A stretch of 64,000 nt of DNA. Origin: Spirochaetota bacterium. GTDB taxonomy: Bacteria > Spirochaetota > UBA4802 > UBA5550. The position numbers and the translations under genes are program-made. The notes under the pieces are model-generated. The model was not told where the DNA came from, did not search any database, and saw nothing but the letters and a program-made list of their open reading frames with translations. The stretch is taken from contig QKCL01000036.1 in the NCBI GenBank assembly GCA_003246895.1, positions 62,001 to 126,000 on the forward strand, read 5' to 3'. This document shows positions 23,584 to 43,553 of this stretch, one piece after another; the stretch's first letter is position 1; every line of letters begins with the position of its first letter.

Positions 23584-26500
23584 ATGGGTGAAGCAATAAT
23601 GGAAAATCAGATTACACTATCTCAACCGCTGATAGAACAGATTACCGGCCTTATTGAATCCAGTGAAGCAGTCAGTAAGAGCTATGGAGGAGAAGTAAAG
23701 GCGGAAATTATCCAGGCCCTGCAGCCGGATTTTCTGCTTACAAAAAGCATACTGCTTTTTGTAAGGCTGAAAACTGAGGAGAAAGTTTTTACCGATACCC
23801 TGCTCTGTACAGAAAAACCCCGGTTAGATGAAGACGAAAGCGGCCCGTGCTCTGATTATCATATTTCTGTTTTTGATCAGAGGTCTTATACAGCTTTTTC
23901 AGCTGCAGAGAGGGAGTTTGAAACACCTTTTCTGCCAATGAAAGAGTTTCAGACTCCTTTGCTGAAAATAGACAATGAGACGGTTATTGAATATTTCAGA
24001 TATTTTCTGCCCGCATTGATCTCACCGGCACTTCTGGTTGAGTCAATAAGCGATATTTCAACCTATAGCCCTAAAGAGAACTTTGAACAGAAAGAGGGTT
24101 TTGAGAAAAAGATTAATTTTTATACGCCGCTGCTGGAAGAAGAGATAGAGAAGATTGAAAAAGCATTGGAACAAAATATACTTCGGATTGTTGAAGAGAC
24201 TCCGGATTCTTTCATCATAGAATCCTGTATCCTCGAGCATAACAGTCTTGATGTTATCAGGTATCAGGTTTTTAAGGAGAACCAGGCCGCTTCTCTGGGG
24301 GCTGAAAATCCCAAAATTAAAGGCCAGATCGAGTATGTCGAAACGGTTAAAACGCCTGTCCGGGGGATACCGGATAACTACATAGTATCAAGGCACCCTG
24401 CCCCGGGACTGTACTGGACTGATGAGGCTGTAGATAATATTGATGGTGACAGAGGGTTTGAATCTGTTCGTATTTTTGAGCAGACATGTATTCTCGATGA
24501 TGTCGGACGCAATTTAAGGCCCCTCATAAGCAAGGCGGCCAGGTTTCAGAGAAGGTATCTCTCAATATATGAAATGGACCTTCTGGAAATTTCAGCACAG
24601 GTCGATTGCCGGGAAGCGGTAATTTGCCTGCTCTGGAAGCCGGGAATAGCAATATGCCTGGACGGTTCCTCAGCCCCGATACACGAATTAAATGAGTCTA
24701 TATTTCCTATGCTTGACCGTGAAAGACTATTCGGTACCTTCGAAGAGGTTGCCGAGTACTGCCGGTTTTTCTGTGAATATGTCTGGGGAGAAGAGGGCCC
24801 CTTTCATATTGTTGAAAGTTCGGAAGACCCTTTCTTTCAGGACGGGTTGGATGAGTGGCATGAAGAAAAATTCACTTCAGCAGAAGATGTGCTGAATGCT
24901 GTTGCACCGCTTAAAGATGAAGGCGAACCGGAAGAAAATACACGGGAACTGTCAGCAATTATAGCATACGGCAATGCTCTGTTCAGCGTGAAATTTGCTG
25001 TGACTGGAAACGGCATGGTTGAAATGACAGACGATGCCCCCCTTGCAATAAGAAAGGGGTGGTCCATGCCGGAGAGACCTGAGCAGTTCCAGTTACTGCT
25101 CAGGAACACCGATCTCGGCATCTGTGAAGCAGACTCCATGGAAAGCTCAGCTCTGGAGAATAAAATCATTCTGGGAAATCTGAAGCCCGAAACCCTGACA
25201 TTAAAGACAATTAAAAACTGCCGATTCAGGGGGGAAGTTGACTTCAGCGGGCTTAACAGTGAAACGGGACTGGAAATAATTAACTGTATTTTTGAAAACG
25301 GCTTTTCCATTAACAACAGCTCACTAAGTGGAGATATGATTATCAGGGAATGTCTTGTCCTCCGCAACTATTCTCATAGCTGCAGTAATCTCGAAATGCA
25401 GAACCTCTCATGTAAAAATATAGAAATCGATGGTTTATGTTACAATGGCCCTCTTGATATGTCGAACCTCAGTGCAGACAGCTGTTTCATTTATGGACTT
25501 TCCCTGCAGGATTCACTCTATATGTATCGGTCAGTGATGTTGAAATTTTGTTCGATAAATAACATAGCTATCGATGGAGATTGTGCATTGTGGGGGAATG
25601 CTGTTAGTCAGGGACCCCTGGGAATCTATGAGCATTTTATCATAACCGGAGATCTTGGTATTGACGGTATCAAGACACTTCAAAATATACAGATTGTTTC
25701 CTCTAAGGGGCAGGGCAGAGTGGGTGGAGAGCTCTCACTCTCCGGAGCAGAGTCAGGGAGTTCTATTTTTCTGGAAAACATCAAGGTGGGGAAAAAAGTT
25801 GATTTAAGTTACTCCAGGGCCAGAAATATACGGGTGTCCAGTTCAAGGTTTCTCAGGAATGAATCAGGGGGCGACGCAGAGAATCAGGGCCCCTTCACAG
25901 TGTCTGACTGTATAGATATCTCCTGCTCAAAAATAGAAAACAACCTTTACCTCTTTGATGTCGTTGTTGAACCTGATGCCGGCAACTCCTGTGACAGGGC
26001 ATCACTAATCCTTCAGAACACTGAAATAAACAATGACCTCAGGCTCTTTGCATCGAAAGAATGGCTTGGTCAAAATGGATATATCATCAAAGTGGATACC
26101 CCCTGCACCTCCAGTTTTGCGGGAGGCATTGATTTGAGCAAGGCCAAGATCGGAGGAGAAGCTGATCTGACAGGTGTTCAGTGCAGTATGGGAGGTATTA
26201 ATCTCGACGATATCCTCGTATCTCATGATTTGAAAATTGTTCATATGGATCAGGATGGGGCTGCAAGGGCCGGTTATTTAACCATGAATAACTCTGTCTG
26301 TGAGGGTAATGCAGTTTTCACCGGGTTGGAGATAGCCCCGGGTTGTGAATGCTGTAACGGTATCTCCGCACAGCACAGCAGGTTTCTGAAGTCCCTGATA
26401 GTTGCTCAAATTATTGATGAATCAAAGGAGGAAGTATGCTGCAGGATATTTCAGTTCCTGGACCTCTCAGGAAGCGAAATCTTCGAGCTTTCTATTTCCA

Positions 26501-27411
26501 ACAGGATCTTCGAAGTCCATGAATGCGCTGCGGAGGAGGGACTTGCCCTTTCTGAAGAAGCCGGAAAAGAACAGACGGGCCCTGCAGCGGCAGCTTCCAG
26601 AAACGGTATCATCCTGAATCAGGCAACAGTGAACAAATTGACAACCATACTTTACCGGAATGAGTACCCCAGGCCGCTGGACCTGAGATTTGCCGAGATT
26701 AAATGGTGGAGTTTTATAACAAAAGATGGAGTGCACAGCGGATATACTGAAGATTTTATCAAAATGCTTGCCTGCGATCCGAATCCCCAAAGGCATACCT
26801 TCCGTTCAATAGAGAAAAATCTGATTGATCAGGGTAATGAAGAGGCAGCTGATGCAGTGCACAAGCAGATGCGGAAATGGCTCCGTAAACAGAAAAGAAC
26901 CAGGCATGCAAATCCTGTCATGGACAAGTTCTTTATTGTACCTCATCTGGTTCGAAAAGTATCGCTCTGGTTTCTAGACAGCGTCACCGGTTCCATGACA
27001 ACACCAAACTATCTTCTGGCCATTGTCGCGGTCTGGCTGACTGTTTCCGTATTTTTCTTCAGCAAACCCGAGAACATAGAACCTTCATCTGAAGCTATCC
27101 AGACCTACGGAGCTGAACTGAAGCCGCACCAGACTCCGGGCAAAGGGCAGTGGAAGGGACTCTCAAGCTTCTGGCTGTCTCTGCAATGCCATGTTCCAGT
27201 CGTAACAATTGCTGCAAATCAGCAGTGGAAGCCTTCAGGCAGCAGAAATCTCCTGCTTTTTAAAAGCGGAAAGGAGAAAACAGAAAAAACTTTTTATGCC
27301 CCTGTTTCCGCGGAAGATTATGCGAACATTGTCATGGGCCTTCACTGGATACTGTGGCCCTTGATCATAGCACTGGCTTCACGGAAAATATTCAGAAGAA
27401 ATGAAAAATAG
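23584..27411 (+). CDS. Very large protein with pentapeptide-like helical repeats and C-terminal membrane helices
   Basis: 1275 residues; ATG 23599 is an alternative start. Residues 1 to about 530 are acidic, mixed, and match no family I know. Residues about 530-1010 have the short-period pattern of right-handed beta-helical or pentapeptide-like repeats (LENIKVGKKVDLSYSRARNI; AGGIDLSKAKIGGEADLTGV). A linker, HTFRSIEKNLIDQGNEEAAD, then precedes two membrane spans (about 1141-1158, NYLLAIVAVWLTVSVFFF; and about 1245-1265, NIVMGLHWILWPLIIALAS). Pentapeptide proteins with this EKxLxDQGxxxxA linker and terminal helices occur in membrane-associated families. The gene sits exactly between two copies of the neighbouring kinase gene's 5' end, so it was probably inserted or duplicated in. 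Confidence 0.75.
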   Translation: MGEAIMENQITLSQPLIEQITGLIESSEAVSKSYGGEVKAEIIQALQPDFLLTKSILLFVRLKTEEKVFTDTLLCTEKPRLDEDESGPCSDYHISVFDQRSYTAFSAAEREFETPFLPMKEFQTPLLKIDNETVIEYFRYFLPALISPALLVESISDISTYSPKENFEQKEGFEKKINFYTPLLEEEIEKIEKALEQNILRIVEETPDSFIIESCILEHNSLDVIRYQVFKENQAASLGAENPKIKGQIEYVETVKTPVRGIPDNYIVSRHPAPGLYWTDEAVDNIDGDRGFESVRIFEQTCILDDVGRNLRPLISKAARFQRRYLSIYEMDLLEISAQVDCREAVICLLWKPGIAICLDGSSAPIHELNESIFPMLDRERLFGTFEEVAEYCRFFCEYVWGEEGPFHIVESSEDPFFQDGLDEWHEEKFTSAEDVLNAVAPLKDEGEPEENTRELSAIIAYGNALFSVKFAVTGNGMVEMTDDAPLAIRKGWSMPERPEQFQLLLRNTDLGICEADSMESSALENKIILGNLKPETLTLKTIKNCRFRGEVDFSGLNSETGLEIINCIFENGFSINNSSLSGDMIIRECLVLRNYSHSCSNLEMQNLSCKNIEIDGLCYNGPLDMSNLSADSCFIYGLSLQDSLYMYRSVMLKFCSINNIAIDGDCALWGNAVSQGPLGIYEHFIITGDLGIDGIKTLQNIQIVSSKGQGRVGGELSLSGAESGSSIFLENIKVGKKVDLSYSRARNIRVSSSRFLRNESGGDAENQGPFTVSDCIDISCSKIENNLYLFDVVVEPDAGNSCDRASLILQNTEINNDLRLFASKEWLGQNGYIIKVDTPCTSSFAGGIDLSKAKIGGEADLTGVQCSMGGINLDDILVSHDLKIVHMDQDGAARAGYLTMNNSVCEGNAVFTGLEIAPGCECCNGISAQHSRFLKSLIVAQIIDESKEEVCCRIFQFLDLSGSEIFELSISNRIFEVHECAAEEGLALSEEAGKEQTGPAAAASRNGIILNQATVNKLTTILYRNEYPRPLDLRFAEIKWWSFITKDGVHSGYTEDFIKMLACDPNPQRHTFRSIEKNLIDQGNEEAADAVHKQMRKWLRKQKRTRHANPVMDKFFIVPHLVRKVSLWFLDSVTGSMTTPNYLLAIVAVWLTVSVFFFSKPENIEPSSEAIQTYGAELKPHQTPGKGQWKGLSSFWLSLQCHVPVVTIAANQQWKPSGSRNLLLFKSGKEKTEKTFYAPVSAEDYANIVMGLHWILWPLIIALASRKIFRRNEK

Positions 27412-31416: not shown

Positions 31417-31550
31417 AGGTCTAAGGAAGGAGGCGTACAGTCTGGGGTTCATAAAAAAATACTATATTTTTTTGAGAACAATATTCCATCATGGATAGTC
31501 TGATTTTCATAATTAAACATCAGCGCCTCATGTATAAAGTGGAGAAAGAA

Positions 31551-32480
31551 ATGAAAAAATATTTTGCTTGTCTTTTATGTTTCATCACTCTTTTCGGCAT
31601 TAAAGAGAGCCGGGCATCGGGCTGTGAGCAGGCATATATGGATATGGAAATAATCGATATAATCACACCCCCCCAGGAAAATAAATCTAATTACCCATGC
31701 AAGCTGAAGGTAAAGATCAAAAAAATCCATAAAAATGAATCGTATCAATTTTTTAAGAGTCTGCTGAATAAGACAGTGGAGAGCACATTTGAACTCCAAT
31801 ACGAATCATTAAAGCAGGCAATACGAAGGGGTAATAATGTCTATGTCTCAGTAAATCAATGTGGCTATTCATTTATTCTGCTTGATCCTTCCAGTTGGCA
31901 CTGCCAGATAAATAGAGTGATCGTTGATTATGCAAAACACAAGCCTGTTCTTTTTAAAGATAAATCGCTCTATGGCTATAAGGATCACATGGGCAATATC
32001 GTAATAGGCCCTGGTTATAAGGATGCACATCCATTCCTTGATACAGGCATTGCAGCAGTTAAAGGAAATTACGGATGGGAATATATAAATTATTTCGGCA
32101 AAAGTATAATCACTCCACATGTGGAAAACGGCAGGCCCGATGCTTTTAAAGAAGGTCTTGCCCGTTATCAGGTACAGTTTGGCAATATCCATAGCCCCAC
32201 TACTCTTATTGGTTTTATGAATCAGAAGGGGGAGGCTGTCATTAAGGCCGGATACAAAAACGCATACCCCTTTTCAGAAGGCCTTGCGGCAGTCCTTGTT
32301 GAAAGTCATGGAGGGGAACTCGGTGAACGCAGCAGATGGGGTTACATAGATAAAAAGGGTATTATGGTGATAAAACCATATTTTGTAAAAGTATCTGCCT
32401 TCAAAAACGGACGTGCCGTTGTGTACACAAAGGAAGGACAGCAGGCTGTCATAAACAGGTACGGTGAAATTATTGAATAA
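31551..32480 (+). CDS. Secreted WG-repeat protein (first of a tandem pair)
   Basis: 309 residues from ATG 31551, chosen over an upstream in-frame ATG because GGAGAAAG precedes it and a signal peptide then leads (MKKYFACLLCFITLFGIKES). The C-terminal half consists of WG/KWG-type beta repeats: YGYKDHMGNIVIGPGYKDA, YGWEYINYFGKSIITPH, GFMNQKGEAVIKAGYKNAYP, RWGYIDKKGIMVIKPYF. The repeat family is frequent in spirochaetes and Bacteroidetes; function unknown. The next gene starts 13 bases later and is clearly a paralogue. Confidence 0.85.
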   Translation: MKKYFACLLCFITLFGIKESRASGCEQAYMDMEIIDIITPPQENKSNYPCKLKVKIKKIHKNESYQFFKSLLNKTVESTFELQYESLKQAIRRGNNVYVSVNQCGYSFILLDPSSWHCQINRVIVDYAKHKPVLFKDKSLYGYKDHMGNIVIGPGYKDAHPFLDTGIAAVKGNYGWEYINYFGKSIITPHVENGRPDAFKEGLARYQVQFGNIHSPTTLIGFMNQKGEAVIKAGYKNAYPFSEGLAAVLVESHGGELGERSRWGYIDKKGIMVIKPYFVKVSAFKNGRAVVYTKEGQQAVINRYGEIIE

Positions 32481-32493
32481 CACAGGGGGGCTT

Positions 32494-33456
32494 ATGAAAA
32501 AAACAGCTGTTCTGATTTTTATAACGTTATTACTTATCACGGTTTCACGGGTACATGCATCATCTTATATTATCTGTGATGTGGAAGCAACTGTTCAGGA
32601 AATTGTAAAACCTGTGAAATTGAATAAAGAAAGGTATTACGCCACTGTCAGGGTTAATGTCGATAAACTGATTTTTCACGAGGGTCTGAAAGAGAGTTCT
32701 GCATATTTTAAAAAGTATCTTCAGGGAACCAGAACCATTGAGGTCATCATAAAGGATAAATCAAAGGCCGGGCTTGTTAAAAAGAACAGCCCCGTTATTC
32801 TCAGTATGCGTAAATCTTCAGGCAAAGGCCGCAGCGGAAACTCCTATAGCAGCACAGTCTGGGTGTTGATGCGGGAGAGAGTAGACCTGATGAAAAATAA
32901 ACCGGTTTCCTTTGAGGAGAGCACACCTTCCGGTATCAGGTACGGATATAAGGATAAAAGCGGTAACATCATTGTGCACCCCTTTTATAGTAAGGCAGGA
33001 GATTTCAGCGAAACCGGAATTGCCCTGGTAATTGACAACCAGTTCTACTATTACATCAATGTCTACGGCCAGAAGCTGGTTCGCCCCTATCCTGTAAATT
33101 ATAATCCCGATGGATTCTCTCAAGGCCTGTCACGATATATTGATTATTCCATATTGAAAACAGGTTTTATAAATAATAAAGGAGAGATCGTCATTAAGGC
33201 TCAATATTTCGATGCTTTGCAATTTTCAGAGGGTCTGGCAGGAGTATGTACATATACATCATCAAACGGTTTCAGCAACAGGGGAGTTTATTCAGAGAGT
33301 GATTACATGAAATGGGGGTTTGTAAATAAAAAGGGGGAGATGGTCATACCGGCCCTGTATTATAAAGTAACTCCATTTAAAAACGGAAAGGCAGTAGTCT
33401 ATTCAAAGACAAAGGGGAAGTTGATCATAGATAAACAGGGCCGCGTCATTGAGTAA
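32494..33456 (+). CDS. Secreted WG-repeat protein (second of a tandem pair)
   Basis: 320 residues from ATG 32494 with GGGGGG just upstream. Signal peptide MKKTAVLIFITLLLITVSRV. A middle domain is shared with its neighbour (DKLIFHEGLKESSAYFKKYL), followed by WG repeats: YGYKDKSGNIIVHPFYSKAG, GFINNKGEIVIKAQYFDALQ, WGFVNKKGEMVIPALYYKV. The same architecture and position indicate a tandem duplication of the preceding gene, so they are probably co-expressed. Confidence 0.85.
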   Translation: MKKTAVLIFITLLLITVSRVHASSYIICDVEATVQEIVKPVKLNKERYYATVRVNVDKLIFHEGLKESSAYFKKYLQGTRTIEVIIKDKSKAGLVKKNSPVILSMRKSSGKGRSGNSYSSTVWVLMRERVDLMKNKPVSFEESTPSGIRYGYKDKSGNIIVHPFYSKAGDFSETGIALVIDNQFYYYINVYGQKLVRPYPVNYNPDGFSQGLSRYIDYSILKTGFINNKGEIVIKAQYFDALQFSEGLAGVCTYTSSNGFSNRGVYSESDYMKWGFVNKKGEMVIPALYYKVTPFKNGKAVVYSKTKGKLIIDKQGRVIE

Positions 33457-35642: not shown

Positions 35643-36302
35643 GTGAAATTTGTTGAAGAAAACCTTCTGGATCACCTGCAGCGTAATGAATTCGCTGAAC
35701 TCTACGCTTCCCTGACAAGGCGCAGTTATCCCAAAGGGGCCTTTGTGTGCCGGCCCGGGGACGAAGAGAATCGTGTCTTCATTGTGGCCAGGGGGCGGGC
35801 CAGGGTCTATCTGGGATATGAAGACAAGGAGTTTAATCTTGGAATTCTGTCCAGGGGGGATATCTATTCTACCCATACACGGGCATTCGTTCAGTCTCTG
35901 GAGGAGATTGAAGTTCTCATTGCCGATACTGAAACATTCAGGCAGAAAATGCTGGATGACCCGGAAGTGGCAAAGGCCATGGTCGTGGTCCTGGGCAGCA
36001 TGCTCAAAACTTCATTCACTATAATTGAGGGCCTGGTTTTCAAAGATGTAAAGAGCCGTCTTGCGGCGCTGTTGGCAGGAGAGGCCAGAAGGCACGGTAT
36101 CTCCTCAGAAGAAGGCATTATTGTCCGGATTGATCTTTCCGTGGAACAGATTGCCAATCTTGTCGGTTCCACGCGGCAGACCGTATCCACCCTTCTCAAT
36201 GACTTCTCCCGTGAGGGACTGGTTAAAAGGCTTGAACGGGGCAGGTTTCTTGTCACCGATGCTGCCGCTCTGGAAGCAGCGAATGATGACAGTTCTGTCT
36301 AA
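35643..36302 (+). CDS. cooA-like: CooA-like Crp/Fnr-family regulator (putative CO/heme sensor)
   Basis: 219 residues from GTG 35643 with AAAGGTGA upstream. The sensor domain follows Rhodospirillum CooA closely: KGAFVCRPGDEENRVFIV, GRARVYLGYEDKEFNLG, then RGDIYSTHTRAFV, where the CooA heme ligands lie. His78 matches CooA His77, but CooA Cys75 is Ser76 here, and Pro2 is Lys2. The rest (DVKSRLAALLAGEA, VEQIANLVGSTRQTVSTLLN) is the CooA-type dimer helix and helix-turn-helix. It is convergent with a CooS-derived gene. By family it should bind heme and CO and activate transcription; retained heme binding needs proof. Confidence 0.82.
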   Translation: MKFVEENLLDHLQRNEFAELYASLTRRSYPKGAFVCRPGDEENRVFIVARGRARVYLGYEDKEFNLGILSRGDIYSTHTRAFVQSLEEIEVLIADTETFRQKMLDDPEVAKAMVVVLGSMLKTSFTIIEGLVFKDVKSRLAALLAGEARRHGISSEEGIIVRIDLSVEQIANLVGSTRQTVSTLLNDFSREGLVKRLERGRFLVTDAAALEAANDDSSV

Positions 36303-36332: not shown

Positions 36333-36974
36333 CTATGAAAAGGGGGAGAAACGGGTTCCGCAGCGGTCACTCCAGCCGAGTTCCAGCCGTTTATTATGTA
36401 TATGTTCATGGGCCTGGTCTGCTGTTTTCACGGGATCTCCTGCCATTGAAAAGACTGCACCCGGAACTGCTGTGTCATTCTGCTGATCATGAGATTTAAT
36501 TACAGCTAAAGGCAGAACTGCAGCATCACCGGAGACATGGACTGCCAGGGAACTGCAGAAATCAGCTATGGCCGGGTTTTTCATACCCTTTGTATGTATG
36601 ACCGGAGCTATGTTCAGAAAACTGCAGAATTCAGACAATCCGTCTCCGGTCCATTTGAATGCACCTGACCCGGCCAGCCCCGCTTTTTCTATTTCCTCAA
36701 CAGGGTAACCGTATGTTATTACGAACATGTCGTCTTTGATCAGTTCCTTCAGCAGCTCTATGTGGTCCCCGTCACTGCTGCCTGTGGAGCCGGCAATGGT
36801 GACTATTCCGCGGATACGCCCCAGCTGAAGCGACTTAAAGAACAGATCTGCGGATTCTGTGCATGTCTCCAGGGCGTCATCTTTATAGTTCAGAAAGTTC
36901 ACTCCGTCAATGATGGCGCAGCCTTCTGTGTTACTGCTGTCTGAAACATCGGTAAAGTCTATATCTCTGTTCAT
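36333..36974 (-). CDS. CooS (CO dehydrogenase) C-terminal-domain protein lacking the metal-ligand cysteines
   Basis: 213 residues with AGGAG before the ATG. The sequence matches the end of the CO dehydrogenase catalytic subunit: LKELIKDDMFVITYGYPVEE (CooS-type LIKNDILVLTTGCSAHA), then GDGLSEFCSFLNIAPVIHTK (LGIPPVLHMGSC type) and DPVKTADQAHEHIHNKRLEL at the end. At the cluster positions the cysteines are gone: Ser63 in VTIAGST (expected GC), Tyr90 in ITYGY, and TKGM in place of MGSC. It therefore cannot bind the C-cluster as CooS does. The upstream region holds a CooA-consensus-like operator, and the CooA-like gene faces it. Probably a repurposed, CO-regulated domain; decay is the alternative. 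Confidence 0.72.
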   Translation of the reverse strand: MNRDIDFTDVSDSSNTEGCAIIDGVNFLNYKDDALETCTESADLFFKSLQLGRIRGIVTIAGSTGSSDGDHIELLKELIKDDMFVITYGYPVEEIEKAGLAGSGAFKWTGDGLSEFCSFLNIAPVIHTKGMKNPAIADFCSSLAVHVSGDAAVLPLAVIKSHDQQNDTAVPGAVFSMAGDPVKTADQAHEHIHNKRLELGWSDRCGTRFSPFS

Positions 36975-37094
36975 GTTTTCTCTCCTGCTTTTCCCCGGCG
37001 AAGTTGCCGGGAAGATGCTCTATGGCTGACCGGACATATTTCAATGTATTGTCCCGGATATGAGCTTACCATACAGGAAAGGGCCGGATCTGTC

Positions 37095-37110
37095 TGTCGG
37101 CTGGCTGACA
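37095..37110. promoter_or_regulatory. CooA-consensus-like operator upstream of the CooS-like gene
   Basis: On the minus strand the site reads TGTCA-GCCAGC-CGACA, the two half-sites of the known CooA box (TGTCA-N6-CGACA) with the expected six-base spacer. It lies about 120 bases upstream of the CooS-like start, on the same side as the CooA-like gene's partner. Confidence 0.65.
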
Positions 37111-37240: not shown

Positions 37241-37441
37241 TTAACCTACTCTTTTTATTGAACCGTTTGAAATCATCTCCTGAAGCTGGGAAAGAAGGCT
37301 TCTCTCCTGCTGGTCAATATGGCCGTCTTCATCGGCAATCATCAGTATTTTGTCATATTCAAGTGTTGTTATCTGGCCGTCGTCCATGGCCTTTTTGATC
37401 ATTTCCATGAGCCTCGCGGCGGATTCGCTTGGTTTCTGCAT
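37241..37441 (-). CDS. Small EF-hand-like/TerB-like protein
   Basis: 66 residues from ATG 37441 (GGAGAAA upstream); a longer in-frame start has no such site. It is all-helical with a short acidic loop, ADEDGHIDQQERSLLSQLQE, that looks like a single EF-hand loop, preceded by GQITTLEYDKILMI. Proteins of this pattern (GxITxxEYxxIL... ADxDGxIDxxE) occur widely in spirochaetes and are related to the TerB domain. Function unknown. Confidence 0.65.
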   Translation of the reverse strand: MQKPSESAARLMEMIKKAMDDGQITTLEYDKILMIADEDGHIDQQERSLLSQLQEMISNGSIKRVG

Positions 37442-37483
37442 TGATATTTCTCCGTATGATTTTTTAAGATTACTTATTATCAC

Positions 37484-41678: not shown

Positions 41679-43553
41679 ATGAAAGACATCGCGGATCATT
41701 TATGGGTCATTATCTCGGCAATGCTTGTATTTCTAATGCAGCCGGGTTTCATGGCTCTGGAGACGGGACTGACCCGGGCAAAGAACTCGATAAATGTGGC
41801 CATAAAAAACATGTCCGATTTTATAGTGTCTGTTGCCGCCTTCTGGTTCATAGGCTTCGGGATCATGTTCGGGAAAACACTTTACGGCATAACAGGGGTT
41901 ACCGACTTTTTTGTAAACTTTGACGTTGATAACTGGAAAGCGGCCTTCTTTGTGTTTCAGGCGGTATTTGCAGGTACTGCGGCAACAATAGATTCAGGGG
42001 CGGTTGCGGAAAGGGCAAAGTTCAGCACATACCTCATAATGTCCTTTATTACATCGGCCTTTATCTACCCGGTTTTCGGTCACTGGGCATGGGGAGGGCT
42101 CTTCTATCCGGAGAATCAGGGCTGGCTCCAGAAACTGGGGTTCCTTGATTTTGCAGGTTCCTCTGTGGTTCACTCAATCGGGGCATGGGTCGCCCTTTCG
42201 GGCGTAATCATTATCGGCCCCAGAATCGGAAGGTTCACCGAAGACGGCAGGGTAAACAAAATAAGGGGCCATAACCTGGTCTTTGCATACCTTGGGGTCT
42301 GCATCCTGTTCTTCGCATGGTTCGGGTTCAATGCAGGGAGCACACTTGCCGCATCCCCAAAAGTGGCAAACATACTGGCAAACACCATCATTTCCGCATC
42401 CTTCGGCGGCCTGACAACATTATTTGTAAGCTGGCTCTTTAGTGATAACCATCTCCCTGAACCTGAAATGATAATAAACGGAATACTCGGCGGACTGGTG
42501 GGAATAACCGCCGGGTGCTACTATGTGGGGGAAGCGGGCGCTCTTATCATCGGCATTGTTTCAGGATTCATAGTGTTCTCCGGCACACATTTACTGGAAA
42601 AACTCAGACTCGATGATGCAGTGGGCGCAATCCCTGTCCATGGATTTACGGGCGTATGGGGCACAATCGCCACGGGCATTTTTATCAGGGAGAGCTTCCT
42701 CGTTGAAATGGGGACCACCCGGAGCCATCAGATACTTGTTCAGGCCCTGGGGTCATTCACAGCCCTTGCCTGGGCTCTGGGCATGTCATTTATACTCATG
42801 AAGATAATCAACCGGTTCTCTCCCATGAGGGTTTCACGGGCATATGAGGAGATCGGTCTGAACATAGCCGAACACGGAGCAAGTTCAAGCATACTTGAAC
42901 TTTCAAGTTCTGTTAGAAAAATAATAGAAAGCAGAAACATCAAAACAGCACAGAAGATAGATGTGGAGTACGGAACTGAAATCGGTGAACTCACAGGCTA
43001 CTTCAATACCATGATAGACGACCTCAAGGCAAAGGAGGAGGCTGCTGAAGAGGCTCTGGAATCCCTGCACTGCATGGCAGTAACCGACGGGCTCACACAG
43101 ATATCCAACAGAAAAAATATTACAGATACTCTTGAAAAGGAAATTTCACGGTCAATACGGTACGGCAAAAAGCTATCCATACTGCTATTTGACGTGGACT
43201 TTTTTAAACAGGTCAATGACACATACGGTCACATCGCCGGGGACAAGGTTCTGGTTGATATCTCCGGGGCCGTGGGTGATGTCCTCAGGGAATCGGATTA
43301 TATGGGAAGGTATGGAGGAGAGGAGTTCCTGATTATCTTTCCCGAAACAGAACTTGCCGGCGCATATATAATTTCAAACCGCATCAGGGAAACCGTTGAA
43401 AAGATGATGTGGGATTTCTGCGACGGTTTCCGGGTAACCATAAGCGGAGGAGTTGTGGAAAACTGCGGAGAGGACCTCACGCGCATGATAAAAAGAGCAG
43501 ACTCCCTGCTTTACCATGCAAAGGGAAGCGGAAGAAACAGAATAGAGAAATAG
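41679..43553 (+). CDS. Ammonium transporter (Amt) fused to a GGDEF diguanylate cyclase
   Basis: 624 residues. Residues 1 to about 380 are a full Amt/Rh-type channel with eleven expected spans, the twin histidines (His165 in SSVVHSIGAW, His321 in PVHGFTGVWG) and Amt signatures such as GTAATIDSGAVAERAKF. A HAMP-like linker and coiled coil (SVRKIIESRNIKTAQ to SLHCMAVTDG) leads to a GGDEF domain: LTQISNRKN, FDVDFFKQVNDTYGH, GGEEF at 546-550, and an RESD I-site (537-540) exactly five residues before it. The protein should couple ammonium availability to cyclic di-GMP synthesis. Related Amt-kinase and Amt-GGDEF fusions have been noted elsewhere. Confidence 0.93.
   Translation: MKDIADHLWVIISAMLVFLMQPGFMALETGLTRAKNSINVAIKNMSDFIVSVAAFWFIGFGIMFGKTLYGITGVTDFFVNFDVDNWKAAFFVFQAVFAGTAATIDSGAVAERAKFSTYLIMSFITSAFIYPVFGHWAWGGLFYPENQGWLQKLGFLDFAGSSVVHSIGAWVALSGVIIIGPRIGRFTEDGRVNKIRGHNLVFAYLGVCILFFAWFGFNAGSTLAASPKVANILANTIISASFGGLTTLFVSWLFSDNHLPEPEMIINGILGGLVGITAGCYYVGEAGALIIGIVSGFIVFSGTHLLEKLRLDDAVGAIPVHGFTGVWGTIATGIFIRESFLVEMGTTRSHQILVQALGSFTALAWALGMSFILMKIINRFSPMRVSRAYEEIGLNIAEHGASSSILELSSSVRKIIESRNIKTAQKIDVEYGTEIGELTGYFNTMIDDLKAKEEAAEEALESLHCMAVTDGLTQISNRKNITDTLEKEISRSIRYGKKLSILLFDVDFFKQVNDTYGHIAGDKVLVDISGAVGDVLRESDYMGRYGGEEFLIIFPETELAGAYIISNRIRETVEKMMWDFCDGFRVTISGGVVENCGEDLTRMIKRADSLLYHAKGSGRNRIEK

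Follow-up and report, generated by a model that had tools for sequence, protein, structure and literature searches.

A predicted CooA operator precedes the gene for a stand-alone CO dehydrogenase domain devoid of metal ligands

The genome of a Spirochaetota bacterium carries a palindrome that, by its sequence, looks like a genuine CooA binding site, placed in front of a gene for a small relative of the Ni-containing CO dehydrogenase (Ni-CODH) and close to a gene for a CooA orthologue. We interpret this locus as a dedicated switch through which CooA controls a functional, non-catalytic protein derived from CODH, and put the probability of this interpretation at about three in four. The locus lies in a window of 64 kb, i.e., the whole stretch of DNA that was analysed, to which all coordinates refer unless another locus is named. 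Its elements are:

35643..36302, plus strand: cooA, encoding a predicted CO-sensing activator of the CRP/FNR family (219 aa, GTG start), assigned by phmmer and by identity with orthologues
36333..36974, minus strand: gene for CooS-CTD, a 213-aa stand-alone C-terminal domain of Ni-CODH, assigned by TIGR01702, PF03063, alignment and its nine-member family
36982..36986, minus strand: Shine-Dalgarno sequence AGGAG before the CooS-CTD start codon
37068..37073, minus strand: predicted -10 element TATGGT, 21 bp after the box, assigned by comparison of spacings
37091..37094, minus strand: GACA abutting the box, invariant in 8/8 box-bearing CooS-CTD promoters
37095..37110, minus strand: predicted CooA operator (the box), TGTCAGCCAGCCGACA, assigned by sequence match and conservation before orthologous genes

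The CooS-CTD protein and its family

The CooS-CTD gene is convergent with cooA, from which it is separated by 30 bp. Its product matches TIGR01702 at positions 420-542 of 621 (E = 2e-16), with 59.3 bits against a cut-off of 478 bits for the full-length catalytic subunit, and it also matches PF03063 (6e-8). When aligned with full CooS, it begins just upstream of the C-terminal domain. The N-terminal domains and the B/D-cluster cysteines of Ni-CODH are absent, and each of the three cysteines that the C-terminal domain would contribute to the C-cluster is substituted in 9/9 members of the family. There is no conservation of the SPEWYSEKA segment, which we take to hold the catalytic lysine of CODH, and the domain is shorter by about 37 residues beyond this segment. 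The single-sequence AlphaFold model of the protein has a pLDDT of 36, too low to be of use. The original description of the gene as CooS-like is right as to the relationship with CooS, but should not be taken to mean a complete CO dehydrogenase: only the C-terminal domain is left, without the cluster cysteines. Judged by these losses, CooS-CTD does not oxidise CO, because it should be unable to hold the Ni-Fe-S C-cluster. We chose the name CooS-CTD because "mini-CooS" already stands for a short Ni-CODH whose metal motifs are complete (PMC8776680).

The nine known CooS-CTD genes encode proteins of 208-213 aa, come from bacteria of two phyla, and form a single clade against full CooS (support 100/100). 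All nine proteins start with MN, behind a GGAG ribosome site in the same place, and end in the tail W-(C/S)-D-R-C-..-F-S-(P/A)-F-S, which CooS lacks. The tail-to-tail pair of cooA and CooS-CTD was found in seven Desulfobacterales genomes (G674, G751, G692, G711, G745, G744, G714), and in all seven of these loci, where both genes are intact, a box with at most one mismatch precedes CooS-CTD. Of 291 genomes sampled within the order to which a Desulfobacter MAG belongs, two have full-length CooS-CTD relatives; inspection of the regions next to the closest orthologues of CooA, in 389 genomes, gave the seven loci. A sample of 395 genomes from the phylum that includes the Desulfobacterales contained a single full-length member, which was already known; the remaining matches were partial and mostly lay in long CODH-sized frames. 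The genome contig collection gave one match, a truncated copy, and the plasmid collection one weak match (27%). We found no paper describing the cooA/CooS-CTD pair. Published Ni-CODH surveys dropped proteins of less than 400 or 550 aa, and the family was probably filtered out as fragments because its 208-213 aa fall below these cut-offs.

Beyond the pair, tblastn revealed no neighbours common to the module loci except a GGDEF-domain match. At 41679-43553, the window encodes what appears to be an ammonium-transporter-like membrane domain fused to a GGDEF domain at its C-terminus (translation judged by eye); the C-terminal part of this protein matches sequences near CooS-CTD in loci L103 and L106. 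Elsewhere, the window contains a pair of neighbouring proteins, each about 330 aa long, apparent paralogues with WG-type repeats (WGYIDKKG/WGFVNKKG; 31491-33456), and an open frame of 1275 aa with no Pfam match (23584-27411).

In the Desulfobacterales, purifying selection seems to act on both proteins, less strictly on CooS-CTD: nearly all pairs give dN/dS values of about 0.15-0.36 for this protein (0.58 in one very close pair) and of 0.01-0.14 for CooA. The identity between the window and the Desulfobacterales is 33-37% for CooS-CTD and 69-73% for CooA, showing that CooS-CTD evolves much faster. These cross-phylum identities, and the failure to find CooA in 392 other sampled genomes of the host's phylum (E <= 1e-18), suggest that the pair was moved by an old horizontal transfer. 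The resolution of the CooA tree does not suffice to place the CooAs next to CooS-CTD in order relative to those next to cooS.

Most genomes with the module lack a complete CODH. No CODH above the TIGR01702 cut-off was found in 7/8 genomes with an intact module, the host included; the exception is G745, the other six of the seven Desulfobacterales being without one. The host genome has no other CooS, and the one further prismane-family gene that it carries looks like a normal, intact hcp at a separate locus (L075). Since the completeness of this genome is 95.7%, a CODH could lie on a missing contig; this objection is weak because six other genomes likewise have no full CODH. Three full CODHs are present in G673, where CooS-CTD is intact and no box precedes it; of the convergent cooA, only some 30 codons for the C-terminus remain (L072:9677-9800). 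Transposase-like genes flank this locus. In the Desulfobacter MAG G393 (QKDP01000361, L034:4580-4760), CooS-CTD is cut to 62 aa with its start codon retained, and no close CooA was found in the genome.

These last two lineages, in which decay has gone further, are what one might expect if the locus were a remnant, i.e., a former cooA-cooS unit in which deletion spared only the 3' end of cooS while the operator and the regulator lingered without function. The loss of all catalytic ligands and the lack of a CODH in the host also speak for such decay, as does G747 (L107:7871-10660), where a full-length cooS follows the gene for a CooA about 70% identical to that of the window, and each of the two genes has a CooA box in front of it. 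It is possible that this arrangement is the ancestral one. Yet decay accounts poorly for nine open genes of 208-213 aa that share their start, their ribosome site and a new conserved tail, for a single clade under purifying selection, for an operator kept at promoter spacing in 8/8 loci, and for the occurrence of the same form in two phyla. We thus consider a remnant unlikely. A simple pseudogene is disfavoured by the dN/dS values, the common start and the common tail.

The regulator and its signal

The regulator had been described as CooA-like, and its orthology to CooA extends over both the effector and the DNA-binding domains. In phmmer searches against structures, it matches 2fmy (CooA-1 of Carboxydothermus; E = 8e-51, residues 1-210), 2hkx (8e-50) and 1ft9 (CooA of Rhodospirillum rubrum; 7e-42), and it aligns almost end to end with the first and the last of these. 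It is 69-75% identical to the CooAs of the seven Desulfobacterales. The axial heme histidine, found in every CooA orthologue compared, is conserved as His78 (in THTRAF), equivalent to His77 of R. rubrum and His82 of C. hydrogenoformans, and the recognition helix is kept (RQTVS, within (S/T)RQTxS).

The redox cysteine of R. rubrum CooA (Cys75) is replaced by Ser76 in the window. This replacement, and the fact that most genomes with the module lack a CODH with which to exploit CO, would fit a real module in which this clade of CooA senses another signal (redox, NO or cyanide). Against this, the surroundings of His78 (GDIYSTHTRAF) closely match those of the CO-responsive CooA of C. hydrogenoformans (GDIFCTHTRAF), and the close relative in G747 adjoins a full cooS; a signal other than CO thus seems quite improbable. 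We infer that CO is the inducer and that CO-bound CooA would activate CooS-CTD.

The operator and the promoter

The original prediction rested on the pattern TGTCA-N6-CGACA, taken as a CooA box upstream of the CooS-like gene, and both points were borne out at the sequence level. The pattern occurs once in the 64-kb window, on the same strand as the CooS-CTD gene and 120 bp before its ATG. It lies in a gap of 266 bp, and it can serve the CooS-CTD gene alone because the gene across the gap (37241-37483) has the same orientation and ends there. The CooA consensus is TGTCGGCnnGCCGACA (PMC545781), and Table 10 of that study lists TGTCAGCCAGCCGACA as the predicted CooA site of Desulfovibrio desulfuricans cooSC. 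The host operator, which has the form TGTC-N8-GACA, is identical to the latter at 16/16 bases.

On its own, the short pattern is merely suggestive, because about 5% of shuffled windows contain it (0.05 per dinucleotide shuffle on average, 5/100 shuffles). The genome scan that had been proposed is more telling for the full palindrome TGTCRGCNNGCYGACA, whose lone perfect copy in the 3.57-Mb host genome is this site. A simple base-composition model derived from the window gives an expectation of 0.023 copies per 3.57 Mb and 2e-6 per 266-bp gap. The next best match, a single site with one mismatch, lies within a coding sequence, and neither this site nor the one inspected among the sites with two mismatches yielded a further member of the regulon in the host. 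A chance palindrome, with CooA, if active, acting elsewhere, would agree with the frequency of the short pattern, but it is extremely improbable given the expectation for the gap, the identity with a published site and the box that precedes the target's orthologue in each of seven other genomes, and we rejected it on the genome-wide uniqueness and cross-phylum conservation of the box.

Among the other genomes with the module, the box of CooS-CTD is the sole genome-wide match to TGTCRGNNNNCYGACA in G711, G745 and G714; elsewhere, the further matches lie within open reading frames, one of them near the start of its frame. A looser pattern retrieves TGTCCCCTGGCTGACA before the full cooS of G745, and the CooA of this genome may therefore have two targets, CooS-CTD and full cooS.

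All eight box-bearing CooS-CTD loci have a -10-like hexamer 19-21 bp past the box (TATATT at 19 bp in most Desulfobacterales, TATGGT at 21 bp in the window), and several promoters of full-length cooS have a TAnnnT-type hexamer about 21 bp after theirs. With this spacing, the centre of the box is predicted near -41.5, the class II activator position familiar from CRP-type regulators. The GACA that follows the box was seen in none of the full-length cooS promoters examined and may belong to a longer operator. In the predicted leader, a GC-rich hairpin (CCCGGC-AACTTC-GCCGGG on the minus strand, 36993-37011) lies immediately upstream of the ribosome site; it was not seen in the CooS-CTD leaders of the Desulfobacterales. 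The earlier suggestion of a CO-response module is upheld at the level of sequence, regulator, operator and target being conserved together.

Known systems and a possible function

The locus resembles the CooA-cooS(C) units of Desulfovibrio and the coo operons of R. rubrum in its regulator, its class II-like spacing and its operator. It differs from them in its target, a domain of 213 aa that is devoid of metal ligands and encoded convergently with cooA, with no adjoining cooF, cooC or hydrogenase genes and no full CODH in the host. Like the mini-CooS of Thermosinus carboxydivorans (clade G Ni-CODH), CooS-CTD is a small relative of CooS; unlike it, CooS-CTD has none of the cluster ligands of its domain and lacks the metal motif of clade G, which the published mini-CooS retains in complete form (PMC8776680). 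The hybrid-cluster protein Hcp with its regulator HcpR also combines the prismane superfamily with a CRP/FNR regulator. In contrast, CooS-CTD matches the CooS model TIGR01702 rather than Hcp, and its operator is of the CooA type.

The CooA-cowN modules of Rhodobacter capsulatus and Gluconacetobacter diazotrophicus provide a further parallel, in that CooA serves a small protein that is not a CODH. CowN keeps nitrogenase working under CO, and its gene has been linked to CooA (PMC8047169); some Rubrivivax strains have cooA and cowN and no genes for anaerobic CODH (PMC4257681). The proposed logic of protection against CO is a functional analogy only, and CowN, unlike CooS-CTD, has not been described as a CODH relative.

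In the dedicated switch that we propose, CO would bind the heme of CooA, and the active regulator would bind the palindrome and recruit RNA polymerase as a class II activator, leading to the transcription of a single gene. The product would be a non-catalytic protein drawn from the C-terminal, Rossmann-like domain of Ni-CODH, most likely working through the binding of another protein. That it is a CO-induced protective or adaptor protein is a tentative guess, made by analogy; it may instead be a regulatory partner. Its partner could equally be Hcp, a hydrogenase or CooA itself. Taken as a whole, we find it somewhat more probable than otherwise that this is a conserved and horizontally spread CO-response module, in which a metal-free protein derived from CODH has come to serve a new purpose other than catalysis (CO protection, adaptor or feedback), in hosts that are mostly unable to oxidise CO by Ni-CODH.

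The familiar role of CooA is to switch on the oxidation of CO. Its predicted operator in front of a catalytically dead relative of CODH points to a CO response other than CO metabolism. If this is true, CooS-CTD would be a second such protein beside CowN, and one would have to ask which part of the physiology of these anaerobes is at risk from CO.
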